This document shows, piece by piece, positions 10,088 through 22,089 of a stretch of DNA of 64,000 bases. Under the pieces are notes generated by a model, which was not told where the DNA came from, did not search any database, and saw nothing but the letters and a program-made list of their open reading frames with translations. Both the position numbers and the translations under genes were made by a program. The first letter of the stretch is position 1. Each line of letters begins with the position of its first letter. This DNA comes from Solirubrobacter pauli (GTDB taxonomy: Bacteria > Actinomycetota > Thermoleophilia > Solirubrobacterales > Solirubrobacteraceae). The stretch covers positions 1,550,001 to 1,614,000 of the forward strand of contig NZ_RBIL01000002.1 of the NCBI RefSeq assembly GCF_003633755.1, given 5' to 3'.

Positions 10088-11397
10088 CCGTTGAGCGAGT
10101 AGCGGCTGTAGCGCTCCGCCACGACCTTCGGCAGCCGCGCGGTCACCCGCACGCCCTCCGGGGTGTCCTCGCGGCCCATCTCGCCCGCGACGTCGTGCAG
10201 CTCCGACAGGAGCCCGCCCTCGCTGTAGGGCACGAGCAGGTCCACGTCCTGGAGCGTCTTCTCGAACTCGACGTGGATGCGCTCCTGCAGCTCCTCGAGG
10301 CCTTCGCCGGTCTGCGCGGAGACGAGCACGGCGTCCGGGTGGCGGAAGGACAGCTCACGGCGGCGCTCGTCGTCGAGCAGGTCCGCCTTGTTGAGCACGA
10401 GCATCCGCGGCGAGCCGCCGGCCTCGATCTCCTCCAGCACGTCCTCGACGGCGCGGGTCATCGCCTCGAGCTCCTCCTCGGGCGCGCCGGCGTCGACCAC
10501 GTGCAGGACCATGTCGGCCAGCACGGTCTCCTCCAGCGTCGCGGCGAACGCGTTCACGAGCTGATGCGGGAGCTTGCGGATGAAGCCGACGGTGTCCGTC
10601 ACGAGGAACGTGCGACCGTGCAGCTTGAGCGTGCGCGTGGTCGGGTCCAGCGTGTGGAACAGGCGGTTCCGCACGCCGACCTCGGAGCCGGTGAGCGCGT
10701 TGAGCAGCGTCGACTTGCCGGCGTTCGTGTACCCCGCGAGCGCGACGTTCGGCAGGTGCGCCCGCTCGCGCTCGGCGCGCTGCGTCGCGCGCGTGAGCTT
10801 CACCTGGTCCAGCCGGCGGCGGAGGACCGTGATCCGGTCGCGCGCGAGGCGGCGGTCCGTCTCGATCTGCGACTCGCCCGGGCCACGGGTGCCGATGCCG
10901 CCCACGCCACGGCCGGCGCCGAGACGCTCCAAATGCGTCCACAGGCCGCGCATGCGGGCCATGTTGTACTCGAGCTGGGCCAGCTCGACCTGCATCTTGC
11001 CCTCGGCCGTGTGGGCGTGCGAGGCGAAGATGTCGAGGATCACCGATGTGCGGTCGAGCACTGGGAGGTCGAGCTCGCCCTCCAGGTTGCGCTGCTGGCG
11101 CGGCGTCAGCTCGTCGTCGGCGACGACGACGTTCGCGTCCGCCCGTTTGAGCAGCGACTTGAGCTCGTCCACCTTGCCGGGGCCGAGATAGACGTTGGGA
11201 TGGGGCGAGTCGCGCTTCTGGACAAGCTCGCCCACGGTGGCGACACCGGCGGTGCGCAGAAGCTCCTTGAGCTCCTCCAGGTCCGTCGTCTCCTCCGAAG
11301 CGGCAATGCAGAAGGCGCGCTGCCGAGCCCGCGGCTCCGCCTTGGCGGCGTAGCTGGACTGGGTGGTGCGGCCATTGCGAGAGCGTTCCAAGACCAC
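10078..11397 (-). CDS. hflX: GTPase HflX
   Basis: A 439-residue ribosome-associated GTPase. The N-terminal HflX-specific domain contains NVYLGPGKVDEL and the glycine-rich GAGRGVGGIGTRGPGE linker. The G domain has G1 GYTNAGKST, G3 DTVGF, G4 NKAD and G5 SAQ. HflX binds the 50S E site and rescues or splits stalled ribosomes under stress. In many actinobacteria hflX follows miaB-miaA-dapF, as it roughly does here with interruptions. It is divergent from dapE across 22 bp. Confidence 0.95.
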   Translation of the reverse strand: MVLERSRNGRTTQSSYAAKAEPRARQRAFCIAASEETTDLEELKELLRTAGVATVGELVQKRDSPHPNVYLGPGKVDELKSLLKRADANVVVADDELTPRQQRNLEGELDLPVLDRTSVILDIFASHAHTAEGKMQVELAQLEYNMARMRGLWTHLERLGAGRGVGGIGTRGPGESQIETDRRLARDRITVLRRRLDQVKLTRATQRAERERAHLPNVALAGYTNAGKSTLLNALTGSEVGVRNRLFHTLDPTTRTLKLHGRTFLVTDTVGFIRKLPHQLVNAFAATLEETVLADMVLHVVDAGAPEEELEAMTRAVEDVLEEIEAGGSPRMLVLNKADLLDDERRRELSFRHPDAVLVSAQTGEGLEELQERIHVEFEKTLQDVDLLVPYSEGGLLSELHDVAGEMGREDTPEGVRVTARLPKVVAERYSRYSLNGQP

Positions 11398-11419
11398 TCA
11401 TTCTAGAGTCCTCGGACCT

Positions 11420-12478
11420 ATGCCCGTCGCCCCCGCGCCAAGCGAATCCGAGCTAGCTGATCGCCTCGCGGCGCGGACGCTCGAGCTGATCGACATCCCG
11501 TCGGAGTCCCGCGAGGAGGCGGCGCTCGCCGAGCACGTCGCCGGCGTGCTGCGCGAGGGCGGCGCCGTGGTCGAGGACCTGGGCGACTCGTGCGTGCTCG
11601 CCTACCCCGCCGAGACGCGGCCGTCGGTGCTGCTCGCCGGGCACCTGGACACCGTTCCGGCGCAGGACAACCTGCCCGGCCGGATCGAGCGCGGGCACGT
11701 GCACGGGCTCGGCGCGTCGGACATGCAGGGCGCGCTCGCGGTGATGATCGAGCTGGTGCTCGCCCGTGCCCCGTACGCGGCGCTGTTCTTCCCGCGGGAG
11801 GAGCTGCCGTCGAGCGAGAGCGCGCTGACGCCGCTGCTCGAGCGGCACACGTTCGAGCACGACTTCGTGGTCGTGATGGAGCCGACCGACGGCCAGCTGC
11901 ACGCCGGCTGCCTGGGCAACATCAACGCGACCTGGACATTCTCCGGCCGCTCCGGGCACTCGGCGCGGCCGTGGCAGGCCGACAACGCGATCCACCGCGC
12001 CGCGGTCGGCATCGCCGCGCTGGCGGCCGCCCCGTCGATCCCGATCGTGTCGGACGGCCTGACCTACCACGAGGTGGCGTCGGTGACGCGCGTCGAGGGC
12101 GGGATCGCGGCCAACGTCATCCCCGACCGCGCGACCGCGCACGTCAACTACCGCTACGGCCCCGGCAAGACGCCCGAGGAGGCCGAGAAGCGCCTGCACG
12201 CGATGACCGCCGGGCTCGGCGAGCTCGAGATCACCGGCAACTCGGGCTCCGCGCCCGCCGCGCTGGACCATCCGCTCGCCCAGAAGCTGATCAAGGCCGG
12301 CGACCTCGCCGTCGCCCCGAAGCAGGCGTGGACGCCGGTCGCCGAGTTCGCCGCCGCGGGCTTCGCGGCCGTCAACTTCGGCCCCGGCCAGACGTCGCAG
12401 GCGCACCAGCGCACGGAGTCGATCACGATCGACGGCCTCCTGCACGCCCACCGCGTCCTGGAGGCGTTCGGCTCGTGA
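11420..12478 (+). CDS. dapE: Succinyl-diaminopimelate desuccinylase
   Basis: A 352-residue M20 metallohydrolase of the actinobacterial DapE type. Zinc ligands and catalytic positions are visible: GHLDTVP, GASDMQG, FPREELPSSES, MEPTD and AHQRTE. It cleaves N-succinyl-LL-diaminopimelate to LL-DAP and succinate. The ATG at 11420 is chosen because upstream sequence in the same frame is the promoter region of hflX. Translationally coupled to dapC through a GTGA overlap. Confidence 0.9.
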   Translation: MPVAPAPSESELADRLAARTLELIDIPSESREEAALAEHVAGVLREGGAVVEDLGDSCVLAYPAETRPSVLLAGHLDTVPAQDNLPGRIERGHVHGLGASDMQGALAVMIELVLARAPYAALFFPREELPSSESALTPLLERHTFEHDFVVVMEPTDGQLHAGCLGNINATWTFSGRSGHSARPWQADNAIHRAAVGIAALAAAPSIPIVSDGLTYHEVASVTRVEGGIAANVIPDRATAHVNYRYGPGKTPEEAEKRLHAMTAGLGELEITGNSGSAPAALDHPLAQKLIKAGDLAVAPKQAWTPVAEFAAAGFAAVNFGPGQTSQAHQRTESITIDGLLHAHRVLEAFGS

Positions 12479-13584
12479 TCCGCCTGTCCCCGGTCCTCGA
12501 AGGCCTCGGCACCTACCCGTTCGTGAAGCTGGAAGCCGCCCGGGCGCGGCTGCGCGCGACGGGCATCGAGATCATCGACTTCGGGATGGGCGAGCCGCGC
12601 GAGGAGACGCCGGCGTTCATCCGCGAGGCGCTCGCGGCCGCGATCACGCCGCTGGCGCCGTACCCGACCGCGGTCGGCCTGCCCGCGCTGCGCGAGGCGA
12701 TCGCCGGCTGGGCGTCCCGCCGCTTCTCCGCCACGCTGGACCCGGACACGCAGATCGTGCCCACGCTGGGCTCCAAGGAGGCCGTCTTCGGCCTGGCGCA
12801 CGTCTTCGCCGGCGATCAGGTGGTCGTGCCCCAGCCCGCGTATCCGGTCTACGACCGCGGCGCGCGCTTCGCCGGCAAGGAGGTCGTCGAGCTGCCGTTG
12901 CGCGAGGCCGACGGCTGGCTCCCGGACCTCGACGCGGTCGACTGGTCGCGCGTGGCGATCCTGTGGCTGAACTACCCGAACAACCCGACGGGCGCCACCG
13001 CGCCGGTCGCGTTCTACGAGCAGGCCGCGGCGCTCGCTCGCGAGCACGGCTTCGTCCTGGCCAGTGACGAGGCCTACTCCGAGCTCTACTTCGGCTCTGC
13101 CGCGCCCGACTCCGCGCTCCAGCTGAGCGACCTCACGAACGTCGCGGTCTTCAACACGCTGTCCAAGCGCTCCTCGATGCCCGGCTACCGCGCCGGCTTC
13201 GTCGCGGGCGACCCGGACATCGTCGCCGCGCTGAAGAAGTACCGCCCGAACGTCGGCGTCGCGCCGCCCGAGGTGCTCCAGCGCGCCGCGATCGCCGCCT
13301 GGAACGAGGAGACCCACGTCACCGAGGTCCGCGCCCGCTACCGCGCCAAGCGGGACCTCCTCCTCCCCGCCCTGGAAGCGCTCGGCCTGCGCTCCGCCGG
13401 CGGCGACGCGTCGTTCTTCCTCTGGATGGAGGGCTCCGACGACCTCGCCGCGCAGTGGCTCGAGCGGGGCGTGATCGTCGCGCCCGGCTCGTTCTTCGGC
13501 CCGGCGGGCGAGGGCTACCTGCGGATCGCCCTCGTCCCGCCGCTCGAGGCGATCGAGCGTGCCATCGAGCGCATGGCACCTTGA
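12475..13584 (+). CDS. dapC: Succinyldiaminopimelate aminotransferase
   Basis: A 369-residue fold-type I PLP aminotransferase. It shows NYPNNPTGA, the SDEAYSELYF strand and the Schiff-base lysine in TLSKRSSMPGYR. It converts N-succinyl-2-amino-6-ketopimelate and glutamate to N-succinyl-LL-DAP. The function is assigned from overlap with dapE and proximity of dapD. The GTG start at 12475 lies in the dapE stop. Confidence 0.88.
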   Translation: MIRLSPVLEGLGTYPFVKLEAARARLRATGIEIIDFGMGEPREETPAFIREALAAAITPLAPYPTAVGLPALREAIAGWASRRFSATLDPDTQIVPTLGSKEAVFGLAHVFAGDQVVVPQPAYPVYDRGARFAGKEVVELPLREADGWLPDLDAVDWSRVAILWLNYPNNPTGATAPVAFYEQAAALAREHGFVLASDEAYSELYFGSAAPDSALQLSDLTNVAVFNTLSKRSSMPGYRAGFVAGDPDIVAALKKYRPNVGVAPPEVLQRAAIAAWNEETHVTEVRARYRAKRDLLLPALEALGLRSAGGDASFFLWMEGSDDLAAQWLERGVIVAPGSFFGPAGEGYLRIALVPPLEAIERAIERMAP

Positions 13585-13708
13585 CCGCGTCCGCGCCGAG
13601 TCGTTCGGCGCGGACCCGCACACCTACGAGCGCGCCCGCCCGGGACCGCCGCCGGCGCTGATCGACGACCTCGTGGCGCTCGCGCCGAGGCGAAGCTCGC
13701 CCGCGTAG
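13583..13708 (+). pseudogene. N-terminal relic of a SAM-dependent methyltransferase
   Basis: A 41-codon open stretch with no start codon, overlapping the dapC stop. It reads RAESFGADPHTYERARPG then ALIDDLVALAP, which closely resembles the N-terminus of class I methyltransferases of the type RARSFGA..YDRARPGYP..LVDDLLALAP. It breaks off at TAG exactly where the glycine-rich SAM motif should follow; a shifted frame continues for about 15 codons (to 13733). The rest of the gene is absent, so this looks like a deletion remnant. Confidence 0.55.
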
Positions 13709-13762
13709 CGACCGGCATGTTCGTCCAGCTATGAATGTTCCACGAGCGACCGTCGAGCTACG

Positions 13763-14719
13763 TCACTCGTTGGCGTGCAGTGCCGCGTTGAGGCCGGCCC
13801 AGTTGCCCGAGCGCGGCAGCGCCTCGACCGTGCCGGTCTTCGAGTTGCGGCGGAACAACAGGCCGGTCACGCCGCTGAGGTCGCGACCCTTGACCGTCTC
13901 CCCGTCCGGAAGCGTGATGATCGTGCCCGCGGTGACGTAGAGGCCGGCCTCGACCGTGCATTCGTCGCCGAGCGAGATGCCGATGCCCGCGTTCGCGCCG
14001 AGCAGGCAGCGCTCGCCGATCGAGATCACCTCGGCGCCGCCGCCCGACAGCGTGCCCATGATCGAGGCGCCGCCGCCCACGTCGCTGCCGTCCCCGACCA
14101 CGACGCCCGCGGAGATGCGGCCCTCGACCATCGAGGTGCCGAGCGTGCCCGCGTTGTAGTTCACGAAGCCCTCGTGCATGACCGTCGTGCCCTCGGCCAG
14201 ATGCGCGCCGAGACGCACGCGGTCGGCGTCGGCGACGCGCACGCCGGCGGGCGCGACGTAGTCGGTCATGCGCGGGAACTTGTCGACGCTGAAGACCTGC
14301 AGCGCGATGCCGTTCGCGCGCGCCTTCAGCTGCACCGCCGTGAGGTTCGCGGGGTCGATCGGCCCTACGCTCGTCCAGGCGACGTTCGGCAGCACGCCGA
14401 AGATGCCCTCGAGGTTGATGCTGCGCGGCTTGACGAGCCGGTGGCTGAGTAGGTGCAGGCGCAGGTAGGCGTCGGCCGTGTTGCGCGGCGGCTTGCCCAG
14501 GTCGGCGATGCGCGTGAGCACCGAGGCCTGGCGCACGTCGCGCAGGTCGTCGGCGCGCTGCGCGGTCGGCAGGCCGTGCTCGGCCGCCGCGTCCGCGCTC
14601 AGCTCGGTGAGCGCCGACTCGCCCTCGCCACCCAGCCGCGGCGCGGGGTAGAAGACCTCCAGGATGCGGTCGCCCGAGTACGTCGCCAGCCCGGCACCCC
14701 AGGCCCCACCTTCGATCAT
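13763..14719 (-). CDS. dapD: Tetrahydrodipicolinate N-succinyltransferase
   Basis: A 318-residue left-handed beta-helix acyltransferase of the actinobacterial DapD family. The hexapeptide repeat region runs from about 165 to 275 ([19 protein letters not shown], then [22 protein letters not shown]). It transfers succinyl from succinyl-CoA to tetrahydrodipicolinate, committing the pathway to the succinylase branch used by the neighbouring DapC and DapE. Its start overlaps the upstream nmrA-like gene by 4 bp. Confidence 0.93.
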
Positions 14720-15576
14720 GCCTGCTCCTTGAATGCGTCCACGTGGTCCTTCGCGAAGTCGTCGATCGTGCGGGGATCACGGCCCAGCGCGTCCTTGACG
14801 CCGGACGTCACCATCTGCAGCCCGCCGCTCGCGTAGAGCTCGAACTGCTCGCTCAGGCCCTCGGCGTTCCAGGGCGGGACCCCGGCGCGCACGAGCTCGC
14901 GCTTCAAGGCCTCGACCGGGATCTCCTCGACCTCGATCTCGCGCCCCGCGGCCGCGAACACCCGCTTCGCCTGGTCACGATAGGAGACGGCCTCCGGGCC
15001 GGACAGCCCGTACGCCTTGCCCTCGTGCCCGTCCTCGGTCAGCGCGACGGCGGCCACCTCGGCCACGTCGCGCGCGTCGACGAGGCTGAAGGCCGCGTCC
15101 GGGACCGGCGAGTAGAACGTGCCGTCGAGCACGCGCGCGCCCCAGGCGAGCGTGTTCTGCATGAAGCTCGTCGGTCGCAGCAGCGTCCAGGCCATGCCGG
15201 AGTCGCGCAGCGCCTGCTCGACGCGGGCGTGGGTGCGGGCGAACCGCAGCGGCGCCTCCGGGTTCGCGCCGATCACGCTGAGCTTGACCACGTGCTGGAC
15301 GCCCGCCTCCTTCGCGGTCTCCAGGAACGCCTGCTCGAACTCGGACTGCATCGGGCCGATCGGCGAGCACAGGTAGGCGCGGGTGACGCCCTCGAGCGCC
15401 GGGCCGAGCGTGCGCGGGTCACCGAGATCGCCCGTGACGGGCTCGAAGCCGAGATCGCGCAGGTGGTGGGCCTTGGTCTCGTCGCGCACGAGCGCGTGGG
15501 CCTCGGCGCCGCGGGCCTTGAGCGCCTTGATGACCTCCATCCCCGTCGTCCCGGTCGCACCGGTCACCAGCAGCAT
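14716..15576 (-). CDS. NmrA-like atypical short-chain dehydrogenase/NAD(P)-binding protein
   Basis: A 286-residue protein with an N-terminal dinucleotide fold ([16 protein letters not shown]) and the NmrA/ycf39-like layout: [25 protein letters not shown]. Family members act as NAD(P) sensors or quinone/ether-type oxidoreductases; no substrate can be assigned. It sits between dapF and dapD with overlaps or a 3-bp gap, so it is transcribed with lysine/DAP genes, but there is no sequence evidence that it belongs to that pathway. Confidence 0.82.
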
Positions 15577-15579
15577 CGT

Positions 15580-16392
15580 CTATTCGGCCTCCATCTCGTT
15601 CAGGAACTCCTCGCTCAGCTCGGCGCGGTAGATCGGCTTGGCCCATCCGGTCAGGTCCACGTGCAGGGCGTCGTCGACGTCCACCACGAGCTCACCGCCG
15701 TCCAGGTGGACGGTCACCGGCGACTCGCCGCCGCGGACCACGTGCGCCACCGCCGCGCCGCTCGCCCCGGTGCCGCTCGACAGCGTCTCCCCGACACCGC
15801 GCTCGAAGATGCGCGCGCGGATCGCGTCGGGGGCGATCTCGTGCCAGAAGGAGACGTTCGTGCGGTTCGGGAACAACGGGCTGTTCTCGATCCCCGGCCC
15901 GATCTCCTGCAGGTTCAGCGCGTCGGGGTCCGGGACGCGGATCGCGCACTGCGGGTTGCCGATGTGCACGTGCTGGAACGCGTAGCCAGCGACTTCACCG
16001 GTGCCGTCGGGCCCACCGGCCGGGTAGTTCGCCGAGGTGAGGCTCGCGCGGCCCATGTCCACACGGCACGTGGTCGGCGACGTGATCGTCGGGCGGATCT
16101 CCCCCGCCAGCGTCTGGATGCTGAACGTGTCGGCGTCCGTCCAGTGGCGGCGCAGGTACAGGATCGCCTCGCGCGCGCCGTTGCCGGACAGCTCGGCCTC
16201 GCTGCCGTCCGGGTTGTAGATCCGCAGCCGCGCGACGTACCCCGGCTCGTCCGGCCGCGTGAGGACGAGGACGCCGTCGGCGCCCGGCCCGAAGTGCGGA
16301 TCGCACAGCCGCTGCACCGTCTTCGCGGACAGCTCGACCTCCTCGAAGATGAGGTAGTCGTTGCCCAGCGCCTGCCACTTTTCGAAGCGCAA
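15580..16392 (-). CDS. dapF: Diaminopimelate epimerase homolog lacking both catalytic cysteines
   Basis: A 270-residue protein with the two-lobed DapF layout: GNDYLIF near the N-terminus, NPDGSEAE leading to the first active-site loop, and ERGVGETL leading to the second. In characterised DapF each loop carries a cysteine (CGNG and CGTG) that acts as acid/base. Here they read SGNG (Ser69, codon TCC) and SGTG (Ser206, codon AGC). It keeps the conserved miaA-dapF position in the actinobacterial gene order. It may be a very slow or altered epimerase, a different isomerase, or a non-catalytic homolog. Confidence 0.85.
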   Translation of the reverse strand: MRFEKWQALGNDYLIFEEVELSAKTVQRLCDPHFGPGADGVLVLTRPDEPGYVARLRIYNPDGSEAELSGNGAREAILYLRRHWTDADTFSIQTLAGEIRPTITSPTTCRVDMGRASLTSANYPAGGPDGTGEVAGYAFQHVHIGNPQCAIRVPDPDALNLQEIGPGIENSPLFPNRTNVSFWHEIAPDAIRARIFERGVGETLSSGTGASGAAVAHVVRGGESPVTVHLDGGELVVDVDDALHVDLTGWAKPIYRAELSEEFLNEMEAE

Positions 16393-16395
16393 GCC

Positions 16396-17253
16396 TTAGA
16401 TCATGGCGACAAGCTCGGCGGCGACGTCCTCCGGGCCCCGATCGGTCATGTCGACGAGGTGCGCTCCGGGCAGCTTGCGCAACCACGTGAGCTGCCGCTT
16501 GGCGTAGCGGCGGGTGTTGGTCTTCATGCGCTCGACGTCGCCGGCGAGCAGCTCCTCGAAGCCGACGGCCCGGCGGGCGGTGGCGCTCGCGCGGTCCGCC
16601 ACGGCGCGCACCTCGGCCTCCGCCCCGGCGGCGACCATCGCGTCCACGCGGGCGTTGATCCGCTCGTAGAGGCGCTCGCGGTCCATCACGAGCGCGGCGA
16701 GCAGCGTCGGGTGGCGCGTGTGCTCGGTCCACAGCTGGTCGCCGGACGGCGGCTGCTCCCCGACCGCGAGCAGCTCGTGCGCGCGGATGATCCGGTGCGT
16801 GTCGGTGGGCTTGATGCCCAGGCTCGCGGGCAGCTCGGCGTGGAGCTCGGCGATGTCACGCGCGGCCAGCCGGGCGCGGATCTCCGGGTCGACCGGTGGG
16901 CGCAGGTCGAGATCCGCCAGCGCGGCGCGCAGGTACAGGCCGGTGCCGCCGACGACGATCGGCCTCCTCCCCTGCGCGAGCAGCGCGTCGATCGTCGCGT
17001 GCGCATGCTTGGCGAACGCGCCCGCCGAGTACGTCTGGTCGACCGGGACGAACCCGAGCAGGCGGTGCTCGAGCTCCGCCTGCTCGTGCGCGTCGGCGGC
17101 GCCGGTGAGGATCGGCAGGCCGGCGTAGACCTGCATGGCGTCGGCGGACACGGCGACCGGATCCTCCCCGCGCGCACGCAGACGCTCCGCGACCGCGATG
17201 GCCACGGCGGTTTTGCCGACCCCTGTCGGCCCGAAGACGGCGATGACGCGCAC
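16396..17253 (-). CDS. miaA: tRNA dimethylallyltransferase
   Basis: A 285-residue P-loop enzyme that adds an isopentenyl group to A37 of tRNAs reading UNN codons; MiaB, encoded 9 kb away, then methylthiolates it. Walker A is GPTGVGKT; the SADAMQVY segment, the GGTGLYLRA strand and KTNTRRYAKRQLTW near the C-terminus are all characteristic. It lies 3 bp upstream of dapF on the same strand and is divergent from the FIST gene across 25 bp. Confidence 0.95.
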   Translation of the reverse strand: MRVIAVFGPTGVGKTAVAIAVAERLRARGEDPVAVSADAMQVYAGLPILTGAADAHEQAELEHRLLGFVPVDQTYSAGAFAKHAHATIDALLAQGRRPIVVGGTGLYLRAALADLDLRPPVDPEIRARLAARDIAELHAELPASLGIKPTDTHRIIRAHELLAVGEQPPSGDQLWTEHTRHPTLLAALVMDRERLYERINARVDAMVAAGAEAEVRAVADRASATARRAVGFEELLAGDVERMKTNTRRYAKRQLTWLRKLPGAHLVDMTDRGPEDVAAELVAMI

Positions 17254-17278
17254 GGGTGGGCAGTATCGTCACCCGGAG

Positions 17279-18445
17279 ATGCCCGTCCGCGTGGGAACCG
17301 GTCTGTCGACGCTCGCCGAGCCGCGCGCCGCGGCGCTGGACGCGGCCTCAGCGGCCGCCGCCGAGCTGGGCACGGACCGCTGCGACCTCGTCGTCCTGTT
17401 CGCCTCCGGCGGCGTGCTGGATGCGCCGGAGCTCGTCCTCGAAGCCGTGCACGAGATCCTGCGCCCGGAGACGCTGATCGGGTGCGGCGCCGGCGGCGTG
17501 ATCGGGCACGGCCGCGAGATCGAGAACGGCACCGCCGTGTCGGTCTGGGCCGCCTCGCTCGACGAGGGCCTCGCGACGTCGTTCCACGCGGCGGTCGAGG
17601 AGATCGAGTCGGGCACGGGCGCGCTGACCGGCATGGCCGACCTGACGGGCGCCGACGGCGCCGTCCTCCTCAGCGATCCGGTGACGTTCCCGACCGCTGC
17701 GGTGCTCAAGTTCCTGTCGGAATCGACGCCGATGCTGCCGCTGATCGGCGGCCTCGCCTCGGGACGCCGCGGGGCCGAGGAGGAGACGGTGCTGTTCATC
17801 GACGAGCGCGTCGTGAGCGAGGGCGCGGTGGGCGTGCGCCTCGACGGCGTCGAGATGCTGCCGGCCGTCTCCCAGGGCGCGTCGCCGATCGGACCCGAGC
17901 TGACCATCACCGCCGGCGAGGGGCACGTGATCGGCGAGCTGGCGGGCAAGCCGGCGCTCGAGAAGCTCCGTGACACGATCGAGGAGCTGCCGCCCGAGGA
18001 GCTCCGGCTCGTCCAGGGCGGGCTGCTCGTCGGCATCGTCGTGGACTCCAACAAGCCCGACTACCTGCAGGGCGACTTCCTCGTGCGCGGGCTGGTCGGG
18101 GCGGATCCGGAGACGGGCCAGGTGGCGGTCGCCGCCGATGTCCATCCCGGGCAGGTCGTCCGCCTGCACGCGCGCGACGCCGAGAGCGCGGACCGCGACC
18201 TGCGCGAGGCGCTGTCGATCCGGATGACCGCGCTGGGTGGCCGGCCACCGGCGGGTGCGCTGGTCTTCGCCTGCAACGGGCGTGGGCGCAGCCTCTTCGG
18301 CCGCCCGGACCACGACGCCGAGGTCGTCGCGGACGCGCTCTTCGGCGCCCCGGCCGCGGGCTTCTTCGCGGCGGGCGAGATCGGCCCGGTCGGCGGCGGC
18401 TACTTCTTGCATTCCTTCACGGCGACGGTGGCGGTGTTCGCATGA
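17279..18445 (+). CDS. FIST domain sensor protein
   Basis: A 388-residue protein with FIST_N (about 30-215) and FIST_C (about 225-365) domains, giving the typical LIGCGAGGVIGHG and RGLVGADPETGQVAVAADVHPGQ stretches and closing with FFAAGEIGPVGG. FIST domains are thought to bind small ligands for signal transduction. No output domain is attached. The ATG at 17279 follows a GGAG site. It is coupled to the following SDR gene through an ATGA overlap. Confidence 0.88.
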   Translation: MPVRVGTGLSTLAEPRAAALDAASAAAAELGTDRCDLVVLFASGGVLDAPELVLEAVHEILRPETLIGCGAGGVIGHGREIENGTAVSVWAASLDEGLATSFHAAVEEIESGTGALTGMADLTGADGAVLLSDPVTFPTAAVLKFLSESTPMLPLIGGLASGRRGAEEETVLFIDERVVSEGAVGVRLDGVEMLPAVSQGASPIGPELTITAGEGHVIGELAGKPALEKLRDTIEELPPEELRLVQGGLLVGIVVDSNKPDYLQGDFLVRGLVGADPETGQVAVAADVHPGQVVRLHARDAESADRDLREALSIRMTALGGRPPAGALVFACNGRGRSLFGRPDHDAEVVADALFGAPAAGFFAAGEIGPVGGGYFLHSFTATVAVFA

Positions 18446-19233
18446 ACCTCGATGGTGCGCGGGTGTTGTTGACGGGCGCGACGGGCGGCCTCGGCCAGGC
18501 GATCGCGCGGGCGTTGCACGCTCGCGGAGCGTCGCTGGTGCTCACGGGGCGGCGCGCCGACGTGCTCGAGCCGCTCGCGTCCGAGGTCGGTGGGCGCGCG
18601 GTGGCGTCGGATCTCGCCGATCCGTCCGCCGTCGACGCGCTGCTGGCGGAGGCGGGCGAGGTCGACGTGCTCGTCGCCAACGCGGGCCTGCCGGGCAGCG
18701 GCGGGCTGCACTCGTTCTCGGTCGAGGAGATCGACCGGGCGCTGACCGTCAACCTGCGCGCGCCGATGCTGCTCGCGCAGGCGCTGTCCCCGCGGATGGT
18801 CGAGCGCGGGCGCGGGCACCTGCTCTTCATGTCCTCGCTGGCGGGCAAGGCGGGCGCGCCGGGCTCGTCGGTCTACGCGGCCACCAAGTTCGGGCTGCGC
18901 GGGTTCGGCCTGGCACTGCGGGAGGACCTCGCCGACAAGGGCGTCGGCGTGTCCGTGGTCCTGCCCGGGTTCATCCGCGAGGCGGGGATGTTCGCCGAGT
19001 CCGGCGCGAAGCTCCCGCCGTTCGTCGGCACGAAGCGCCCGGAGGACGTGTCCCGCGCGGTCGTGAAGGCGATCGAGCTCAACCGCGCGGAGATCGACGT
19101 CGCGCCGGTCGCGCTGCGGGCGGGAACGCTGCTGGCCTCGGTGGCGCCGGGCCCGGTCGGCTCGGTCCAGCGCAAGCTCGGTGCCGTCAAGACGTCCGAG
19201 GCGATCGGGCGCGGGCAGACGTCGAAGCGCTAG
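18442..19233 (+). CDS. Short-chain dehydrogenase/reductase
   Basis: A 263-residue classical SDR. The cofactor motif is TGATGGLGQAIA, followed by VANAG and catalytic residues in the S-Y-K pattern (MSSLAG then VYAATKFGLRG). The C-terminal segment beyond residue 220 is basic. Substrate not assignable. Co-transcribed with the FIST gene; its stop overlaps the convergent mscS stop by 4 bp. Confidence 0.87.
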   Translation: MNLDGARVLLTGATGGLGQAIARALHARGASLVLTGRRADVLEPLASEVGGRAVASDLADPSAVDALLAEAGEVDVLVANAGLPGSGGLHSFSVEEIDRALTVNLRAPMLLAQALSPRMVERGRGHLLFMSSLAGKAGAPGSSVYAATKFGLRGFGLALREDLADKGVGVSVVLPGFIREAGMFAESGAKLPPFVGTKRPEDVSRAVVKAIELNRAEIDVAPVALRAGTLLASVAPGPVGSVQRKLGAVKTSEAIGRGQTSKR

Positions 19234-20177
19234 CCGTCGCTGATCCGGCCGGCGGCGGTGACGCCGTCGGTGCGGGGCACCTCGGTGGCGTTGCCGACCG
19301 CCGCGAGGACCTCGTCGGCGAGCTTGGGCCCGTCGGCATCCGACAGTGGCGTCGCCTGGATGCGGACCACGACCTCGTCGGCGTCCACCTCCTCCAGCGA
19401 GATGTTCGGCTCCCCGCGTGTGGGCGTGGTGATCGCCGCTTCGAGCATCGTCTGGATCGCGCTCGGGCGCACGTCGGGCCGGAGGCGGGCCCGGAGGTCG
19501 ACCGCCGCGGGCTCGCGCAGCGGGACGACCGCCGCGCTCAGGACGACGTTGTTCGGGACCATGATCGAGTCCTGGCCCTGGGCGAGCGTCGTGTAGAGCA
19601 GGCCGAGGCTGGACACGACGCCCTCGACCTGGCCGGCGAGGCCACCGGCCTGCAGGCGGACGCGGTCGCCGACCTTGAACGGGCGGACCGAGATCAGCAC
19701 GAGGCCCGCGATCAGGTTGCCGAGCGTCTGCTGGGCGGCGAGGCCGAGGACGACCGCCGTGATCGCGCCGCCGAACGCGAGCGTTCCGGGGTCAAGGCCC
19801 GCGATCCGCAGCGAGGCGACGGCGGCGATCACGAGGAACGCGAAGCGGATCAGGAAGCCCGCGGTGCCCGCGGTGCCCGGGTCCATCCGGCGGAACAGCG
19901 CGGGGGCGGTGAAGCGGCCCAGGTCGCGAGCGATCGCCCAGCCGAGCGCGAGCATCACGATCGCAGCAGCGATCCGGACGGGCGCGTCGAGGCCGAAGAT
20001 GCGCTCGCGCTCGACGAACGCGACGATCGTCAGGGCCAGGAGCGGGATGACCGCCGCCAGCTCCCACTTGGCGCGGCGGGCTTTCTTGGCGGTCTGCAGG
20101 GTCAATGAGCGCGCCTTGGGCGCGACGTGAGGTCGGTGGAGACGTGGCACTTCAGGGATCCACGCTTCCCGGCGCAC
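19230..20177 (-). CDS. MscS-family mechanosensitive ion channel
   Basis: A 315-residue small-conductance channel homolog with about three to four N-terminal helices. The pore-lining helix (TLAFGGAITAVVLGLAAQQTLGNL) carries the Gly/Ala packing pattern of MscS TM3. It is followed by the beta domain (VRPFKVGDRVRLQ and VPNNVVL) and an alpha/beta C-terminal domain. It relieves turgor after hypo-osmotic shock. The GTG start at 20177 could be replaced by a GTG ten codons in. A Crp-like palindrome lies 14 bp upstream of the start. Confidence 0.87.
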   Translation of the reverse strand: MRREAWIPEVPRLHRPHVAPKARSLTLQTAKKARRAKWELAAVIPLLALTIVAFVERERIFGLDAPVRIAAAIVMLALGWAIARDLGRFTAPALFRRMDPGTAGTAGFLIRFAFLVIAAVASLRIAGLDPGTLAFGGAITAVVLGLAAQQTLGNLIAGLVLISVRPFKVGDRVRLQAGGLAGQVEGVVSSLGLLYTTLAQGQDSIMVPNNVVLSAAVVPLREPAAVDLRARLRPDVRPSAIQTMLEAAITTPTRGEPNISLEEVDADEVVVRIQATPLSDADGPKLADEVLAAVGNATEVPRTDGVTAAGRISDG

Positions 20178-20190
20178 CGGGTTTCAGTCG

Positions 20191-20206
20191 CGTGATCTCG
20201 ATCACA
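20191..20206. promoter_or_regulatory. Candidate Crp/Fnr-family operator
   Basis: CGTGATCTCGATCACA contains the perfect palindrome GTGATC-TC-GATCAC and fits the GTGA-N6-TCAC consensus of Crp-family regulators, including mycobacterial Crp. It sits in the 106-bp divergent promoter region between mscS and phoA, so it could affect either gene. No binding data; call by consensus only. Confidence 0.45.
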
Positions 20207-20239
20207 AGTCGTTCACTCCGATCGCCCGGATTCCCGGCA

Positions 20240-20260
20240 GGGTCCTCCGCGGAGGGACCC
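20240..20260 (+). promoter_or_regulatory. 5' leader hairpin ahead of phoA
   Basis: An imperfect inverted repeat: core CTCCGCGGAG flanked by GGGTC and GACCC with one bulged G. It ends 23 bp before the phoA start and immediately upstream of the strong AATAGGAGGA ribosome-binding site. It would fold in the 5' untranslated mRNA without masking the ribosome-binding site. Confidence 0.4.
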
Positions 20261-20283
20261 AACTACAGGCAATAGGAGGAAAG

Positions 20284-22089
20284 ATGCGCGCAACGCGCAT
20301 TGCGGTTCTGGCCGCTGTCGGCGTGGCCGCGGCCGGGGCGACCGGGGTCGCCGTCGGGCAGTCGGGGCCCGACAAGAGCGCTTCGCTCAAGGCTTCGGTG
20401 GACATCTCGAAGCCCAAGAACATCATCCTGTTCATCGGCGACGGCATGGGTGACTCCGAGGTCACCTCGGGCCGCTACTACGCCAAGGGTGCTGCCGGGC
20501 GCCTGAACATGGACTCGCTGCCGTTCCGCGGCGACGTGACGACCTACAACGTCGGGCCGGCGGCCGCCGCGCCGTACCCGCCCAACTACGTGCCGGACTC
20601 GGCGCCGACCGCCGCGGCGTGGTCGAGCGGCATCAAGACGCTCGACGGTCGCCTCGGCCAGGGCCCGAGCTCGGGCGTCACCGTCCCGGGCACGAACTAC
20701 GAGACCTACATGGAGATCGCGAAGAAGCGCGGTCTCTCCACGGGCAACGTCTCCACCGCGGAGATCACCGACGCGACGCCGGCGGGCCCGTCGGCGCACA
20801 TCTCCCAGCGTGGGTGCCAGGGCCCGAACGACACGCGTTCGTCGTGCCCGACGGAGACCAAGGCGGCCGGCGGCCTCGGCTCGATCGCCGAGCAGCAGGC
20901 CGACAACCAGTTCGACGTCGTGCTCGGCGGCGGCCGCGCCCGCTACGCGCAGCCGCTCGAGCCGGGTGGCACGAAGAACGTCATCGACTACGCCAAGGAG
21001 AAGGGCTACAAGTACGTCGCCACCGAGGCGGAGATGAACGCGGTCGGCACGCTCGCCCCGGGTGAGCGCCTTCTCGGCCTGTTCCACGACTCCAACATGA
21101 CGACGGAGTTCCAGCCCCTGATCGCGTCCGACACCGGCGCCGGCTCGGCCACCACCAAGTGCCAGCCGTCCAACCGCGGCACCGAGCCCACCCTGGCCGA
21201 GATGACCGACAAGGCCATCAAGCTCCTCGAGGGCAACCAGAAGGGCTTCGTGCTCCAGGTCGAGGGCGCCTCGATCGACAAGCGTGACCACGCCTCCGAC
21301 GCCTGCGGCCAGATCGGCGAGCTGATCGGCATGGACGACGCCCTCGGCGTCGCCCAGGAGTTCCAGAAGTCCCACCCGGACACGCTGATCATCGTCAGCG
21401 CCGACCACTCCCACACGAGCCAGATCATCGGCCCGACCACGGTCCCGCGCGGCCAGTACACGACCCTGCAGACCGCTGACGGCGCCCCGATCCGCATCTC
21501 CTACGGCACCGCCGCGATCACCGGCTCCCAGTCCCACACCGGTGCCACCGTCCCGGTCTTCGCCTCCGGCCCCCGCGCCGCCGACGTGACCGGCACGATC
21601 GACCAGACCGCGCTGTTCCCGATCCTCACCAACACCCAGACGGGCACCGGCCCGGCGACCTCCACCCCGGTCGGCGGCGACGTCGGCGGCTCCGTCCCGG
21701 CGACCCTGGCGCTGACCGTCTCCGGCGCCGCCTCGTTCCCGGCCTTCGTCCCGGGCGTCGCGAAGGACTACGTCGCCGGTCCGCTCACCGCCAACGTCAC
21801 CTCGACCGCCGGCCTGGCCACCCTCACCGTGGCCGACGCCGGCACCACCAACCCGGGCACGCTCACCAACGGCACCTTCGCCCTGGCGCAGCCGCTCCAG
21901 GCCCGGGCCAAGGACGGCGCCTTCGCCGCCCTCGGCGCCACCCCGACGACCCTCGTCACCTACACCGGCCCGGTCGCCAACGACGCCGCGCCGATCGAGT
22001 TCAAGCAGTCCATCGCGAGCAACGAGCCGCTGCGGACCGGCACTTACGCCAAGACGCTCACGCTCACGCTGTCCACGACGACGCCGTAG
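20284..22089 (+). CDS. phoA: Secreted alkaline phosphatase with extra C-terminal domain
   Basis: A 601-residue PhoA-type phosphomonoesterase with an N-terminal signal peptide (cleavage near AVG-QS). Metal and active-site elements are present: FIGDGMGDSE, nucleophile Ser in VPDSAPTA, EGASIDKRDHA, SADHSH and SQSHTG. The catalytic domain ends near residue 455. A Gly/Pro linker then leads to a ~130-residue Thr/Val/Ala-rich beta domain ending LSTTTP, which is not part of canonical PhoA and may attach the enzyme to the cell surface. A strong AGGAGG-type site precedes the ATG. Confidence 0.92.
   Translation: MRATRIAVLAAVGVAAAGATGVAVGQSGPDKSASLKASVDISKPKNIILFIGDGMGDSEVTSGRYYAKGAAGRLNMDSLPFRGDVTTYNVGPAAAAPYPPNYVPDSAPTAAAWSSGIKTLDGRLGQGPSSGVTVPGTNYETYMEIAKKRGLSTGNVSTAEITDATPAGPSAHISQRGCQGPNDTRSSCPTETKAAGGLGSIAEQQADNQFDVVLGGGRARYAQPLEPGGTKNVIDYAKEKGYKYVATEAEMNAVGTLAPGERLLGLFHDSNMTTEFQPLIASDTGAGSATTKCQPSNRGTEPTLAEMTDKAIKLLEGNQKGFVLQVEGASIDKRDHASDACGQIGELIGMDDALGVAQEFQKSHPDTLIIVSADHSHTSQIIGPTTVPRGQYTTLQTADGAPIRISYGTAAITGSQSHTGATVPVFASGPRAADVTGTIDQTALFPILTNTQTGTGPATSTPVGGDVGGSVPATLALTVSGAASFPAFVPGVAKDYVAGPLTANVTSTAGLATLTVADAGTTNPGTLTNGTFALAQPLQARAKDGAFAALGATPTTLVTYTGPVANDAAPIEFKQSIASNEPLRTGTYAKTLTLTLSTTTP

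Follow-up and report, generated by a model that had tools for sequence, protein, structure and literature searches.

A DapF homologue of Solirubrobacter pauli with serine at both catalytic cysteine positions, conserved across the Solirubrobacterales

DapF, which converts LL-diaminopimelate (LL-DAP) to meso-DAP, serves as a model of how a thiolate/thiol pair moves a proton on the alpha carbon of an amino acid, and by the standard account serine is too weak for this chemistry. Can a DapF homologue in which both catalytic cysteines are serine still be the epimerase of its organism? The question was raised by a dapF gene in a 64,000-nucleotide stretch of Solirubrobacter pauli (NZ_RBIL01000002.1, positions 1,550,001 to 1,614,000; here called the window). 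The original prediction, made from the letters of the window, placed Ser69 (TCC) and Ser206 (AGC) at both catalytic sites, and this was borne out when the minus strand was read. The Ser/Ser pair is real, old and selected, and it conflicts with the textbook mechanism. We consider it probable (roughly 0.7) that the protein is a naturally thiol-free ortholog of DapF and works as the organism's DAP epimerase, an activity that we infer from the evidence below.

The dapF product has the family profile and fold of DapF. It was matched by TIGR00652 (NCBIfam, DapF equivalog) at 195.1 bits against a cut-off of 114.65, and by PF01678 at 148.7 bits. The serines are held in the loops ELSGNGAR (Ser69) and TLSSGTGA (Ser206). 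An AlphaFold2 model had a mean predicted local distance difference test (pLDDT) score of 96.1, and the closest solved structure (foldseek) was 9mro_A, a cyanobacterial DapF with DAP analogues (template modelling score 0.91, 34% identity). Ser69 is directly followed in the model by helix 71-84 and Ser206 by helix 208-220 (P0001 numbering, which runs one residue higher, so that Ser69/Ser206 are Ser70/Ser207), and both serines are thus predicted at helix N-terminal ends, in the same place as the DapF cysteines. Because the defining cysteine pair was looked for and serines were found in its place, we class the protein as a DapF variant of Ser/Ser type and not as DapF in the strict sense.

DAP ligands were taken from crystal structures (PMC12039745) and from mutants (PMC5296763). 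All of those of Anabaena DapF (N66, N164, N197, E215, R216, G76, N77, G225, T226 and N13) were matched in the window protein. In the 165 sequences of the four Ser/Ser groups, a few of which come from repeat reads of one genome, N12, N61, G71, N72, N147, N180, E198, R199 and G208 were invariant, the sole ligand exception being T209 (Anabaena T226), which varies T/S. Among the invariant residues are the contacts to the distal end of DAP, with its carboxylate and amino group (N61, N147, N180, E198, R199), and these contacts define DAP as the substrate. Complete separation of Ser/Ser from Cys/Cys proteins was seen at the two catalytic positions only. A conserved substitute cysteine was considered and rejected: Cys31, Cys110 and Cys150 (P0001 numbering) occur in many proteins of the order, yet 7 of the 127 Ser/Ser homologues lack cysteine altogether.

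Homologue coordinates were obtained from a class-wide search (Thermoleophilia), and the DNA at those loci was then read. The alignment of Thermoleophilia DapF proteins proposed with the original prediction gave Ser/Ser in all 99 Solirubrobacterales genomes with dapF read complete (families f1-f4), a count from which a second, Cys-type copy in one genome (L178 in G307) was left out. Two more families, f7 with 21 genomes and f11 with 4, were likewise Ser/Ser, and six other families of the class (f5, f6, f8, f9, f10, f12) were Cys/Cys. The exception in f9 was G042 (L113 / L148), which has Ser(AGC)/Cys(TGC) among Cys/Cys relatives, possibly an intermediate state. Beyond the class, a pattern scan of named genomes, which selected for serine at the first loop only and is too biased to give frequencies outside the class, returned at least 80 loci, with DapF in 79 of those listed. 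Among loci read through, at least 27 acidobacterial and at least one gemmatimonadote were Ser/Ser; the second-loop serine of the Acidobacteriota is independent information, because the scan chose on the first loop only. Ser/Cys proteins among the matches listed came from Acidimicrobiaceae, Christensenellaceae, one planctomycete and one chloroflexote. The DapF was the sole match in 28 of 30 such scan genomes (among matches listed). No published report of a Ser/Ser DapF was found in the literature searched, subscription journals lying outside its coverage.

Three further observations were made on these sequences. Acidimicrobiaceae-like loci (L200, L201, L217 and others listed) form a large Ser/Cys group, with Trp replacing Glu before the second loop (G-x-G-W-T-x-A-C-G-T-G). 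The Ser/Ser DapFs of f7 (L174-L184) have approximately 230 residues, about 40 below the usual length. Three f8 genomes (G016, G028 and G064), 96-97% complete, were without any DapF match.

All six serine codons, from the TCN and AGY boxes, were used at these two positions with the amino acid constant, and a switch between the boxes needs two base changes. This codon usage means that serine itself is under selection. The earlier claim that the change is not random decay is strongly supported by the order-wide strict conservation, the six-codon usage and the invariant ligands. The tree placed the order together with f11, f7 as a second group, and the Acidobacteriota as a third, apart from Thermoleophilia; the alignment retained both catalytic columns, so that tree and trait are not wholly independent. 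By the approximately unbiased (AU) test, one clade of all Ser/Ser proteins was not rejected (p = 0.167), and a single origin inside Thermoleophilia was compatible with the data (p = 0.874). The Ser/Ser state is old whichever origin scenario holds.

For the product, Conexibacter woesei DSM 14684 has A1gamma peptidoglycan with meso-DAP, which is stated to be diagnostic for all members of the Solirubrobacterales (PMC3035278), and meso-DAP was reported for a Solirubrobacter species (PMC10722151). The dapF (L033) of G196, the genome assigned to C. woesei, is Ser/Ser. In the literature searched, no direct report of meso-DAP was found for Bryobacter or Gaiella occulta. LysA, which requires meso-DAP, was present in the source genome and in every one of the 20 Ser-type genomes checked (above cut-off in 19), and MurE of the source genome carries the DNPR motif. 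With these two genes and its neighbours, dapF is placed in the DAP pathway. The succinylase route (dapE, dapC-like, dapD) is complete beside it, each of the 12 neighbourhoods compared had an LL-DAP/DapC-type aminotransferase or dapE near dapF, and C. woesei has an LL-DAP aminotransferase gene that overlaps dapF. The miaA-dapF arrangement, also part of the original prediction, was recovered by profiles in the window and in 12/12 neighbourhoods. As a separate observation, the genes beside dapF alternate within the Solirubrobacterales between succinylase genes (dapC/D/E) and one LL-DAP-type aminotransferase gene (L316-L324).

A genome search for a Cys-type second DapF or a DAP dehydrogenase, which had been proposed earlier, was run and found neither. 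No second DapF-family gene was present in the source genome, and nearly all 101 order genomes had one dapF each (two domain hits per gene). DAP dehydrogenase (Ddh, TIGR01921) had no match in the source genome, was absent from 100 of the 101 order genomes and above cut-off in one; in the class sample it was above cut-off in 1/249, and sub-cut-off matches were mostly short N-terminal stretches. These absences, together with the meso-DAP reports, LysA and the MurE motif, disfavour the earlier alternative of direct use of LL-DAP, with meso-DAP coming from a different enzyme. Two genomes of the order were recorded separately. One (G307:C165) holds the second DapF noted above, Cys/Cys and of a distant type, through contamination or transfer. 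The other (G254) has a full DAP dehydrogenase (G254:C1:345697-346665, L133, 444 bits) yet keeps a Ser/Ser DapF (L050), and is a natural test of DapF decay under bypass.

If the Ser/Ser protein is the working epimerase, LL-DAP from DapD/DapC/DapE would bind as in any DapF, as the conserved ligands suggest. The two serines, at helix N-terminal ends on opposite faces of the substrate carbon, would replace the thiolate/thiol pair and perform the 1,1-proton transfer that gives meso-DAP. To make a serine oxyanion less costly, the reaction would need to draw on a closed site free of water, on helix ends and on backbone amides, with help from the ammonium group of the substrate itself. The meso-DAP product would then supply MurE and LysA. 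We lean towards the view that a cofactor-independent, thiol-free Ser/Ser epimerase was fixed in several lineages (Thermoleophilia, Acidobacteriota), perhaps since oxidation cannot shut it off. In C. glutamicum DapF, peroxide shuts the enzyme off via a disulfide between the two catalytic cysteines (PMC5296763); by analogy, our guess is that the benefit of Ser/Ser is insensitivity to oxidation.

Several points weigh against a working Ser/Ser epimerase. A single Cys-to-Ser change leaves PddB with <0.1% activity (PMC8225329), and that paper cites the same loss for Mt-DapF; Cys-to-Ser also nearly abolishes activity in HisR, and Ala mutants of C. glutamicum DapF are nearly inactive (PMC5296763). Here both cysteines are changed, not one. 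A new conserved acid/base replacing the thiols was sought in the Ser/Ser proteins and none was found, no assay of any Ser/Ser DapF was found in the literature searched, and the meso-DAP data are chemotaxonomic and come from relatives, not the source strain. Those mutants, however, each carry one change in an enzyme adapted to thiols, and in a related fold a naturally occurring Ser/Cys epimerase is active (eLife 03275).

Those near-dead mutants of Cys/Cys relatives also favour the strongest rival, which we judge unlikely: epimerase activity was lost, the protein does some other DAP task (binding, elimination, proton exchange on one side, or regulation), and meso-DAP comes from an epimerase or racemase that is unrelated and has escaped recognition. 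Altered residues can mean an altered reaction, because a Thr replacement made a hydroxyproline epimerase relative a dehydratase (PMC8142540; eLife 03275). However, neither a second DapF nor a DAP dehydrogenase was found, the other epimerase would be needed in Ser/Ser lineages of both Thermoleophilia and Acidobacteriota, and the DAP ligands are fully kept with the LL-DAP genes still adjacent. DAP, moreover, lacks the beta-leaving group that the dehydratase relatives use.

It is considerably less plausible that the protein is a substrate-switched relative, although the DapF fold did give rise to such enzymes (histidine, diaminobutyrate (Dab) and O-ureidoserine racemases). The distal-end ligands are invariant, the equivalog score is that of DapF, the protein is the sole family member in the genome and sits in the DAP cluster, and the switched relatives cited use cysteines. 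A sequencing error or decay of a single gene in a single genome, for which nothing was found in favour, is refuted by the open frame, the six-codon usage and the strict Ser/Ser conservation of the order, including the finished C. woesei genome. Of the three alternatives first offered, the Ser/Ser enzyme variant is best supported; the different substrate is disfavoured by the kept ligands and by neighbours that make LL-DAP, and the other-enzyme option as described above.

Features of the dapF region, in window coordinates
Feature	Position	Strand	Basis and remarks
dapE, succinyl-DAP desuccinylase (gives LL-DAP)	11363..12478	plus	TIGR01900, 325.4 bits vs cut-off 304.2
dapC-like aminotransferase (N-succinyl-DAP)	12478..13584	plus	TIGR03537, 374.5 bits, best family, below cut-off 453.6
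dapD, tetrahydrodipicolinate N-succinyltransferase	13763..14719	minus	TIGR03535, 468.9 bits vs cut-off 441.5
NmrA-like NAD(P)-binding protein gene	14716..15576	minus	PF05368/PF13460; between dapF and dapD
dapF, Ser/Ser variant	15580..16392	minus	270 aa from TTG at 16392, stop included
Ser206 codon AGC, at place of second catalytic Cys (Anabaena DapF Cys224)	15775..15777	minus	Translation and alignment
Ser69 codon TCC, at place of first catalytic Cys (Anabaena DapF Cys75)	16186..16188	minus	Translation and alignment
miaA	16396..17253	minus	TIGR00174 above cut-off; directly upstream of dapF

The TTG start of dapF is three bases past the miaA stop. The TIGR01900 match in dapE begins at residue 33, and the true start of that gene is probably downstream of 11363. 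The NmrA-like gene probably lies outside the DAP pathway, because no homologue was seen in the 12 other neighbourhoods compared. No Rfam elements were found in 11000-20500.

If the sole conserved DapF of a meso-DAP order works with two serines, the standard account is incomplete; if the protein is inactive, an undiscovered route to meso-DAP must exist in these lineages. In the first case, annotation by profile only would hide that the chemistry has changed, and DapF inhibitors that react with thiols would meet a naturally insensitive target.

Compared with known systems, the window protein shares with DapF of H. influenzae, C. glutamicum and Anabaena the fold, length, DAP-binding residues, helix placement of the catalytic positions and genomic role. 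It differs in that both catalytic cysteines are serine, in the C-terminal M-T-G motif (Met to Leu), and just ahead of the second catalytic position, where the residue is mostly Ser and not Ala. DAP dehydrogenase would give meso-DAP without DapF, but the source genome and almost every other genome of the order lack it. In the proline racemase superfamily, a related fold with a natural serine for one cysteine is found in 4-hydroxyproline 2-epimerase (Ser/Cys), which is active (eLife 03275), and in trans-3-hydroxyproline dehydratase (Ser/Thr). The Ser/Cys epimerase has a single serine and another substrate, and hydroxyproline epimerases are 13-16% identical; the Ser/Cys pattern does not describe the window protein, where both positions are serine. 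The engineered DapF mutants C73S and C217S (PDB 2q9h, 2q9j) carry Cys-to-Ser at the same positions, but each is an engineered single substitution in a Cys/Cys enzyme, whereas here both serines are natural and fixed order-wide.
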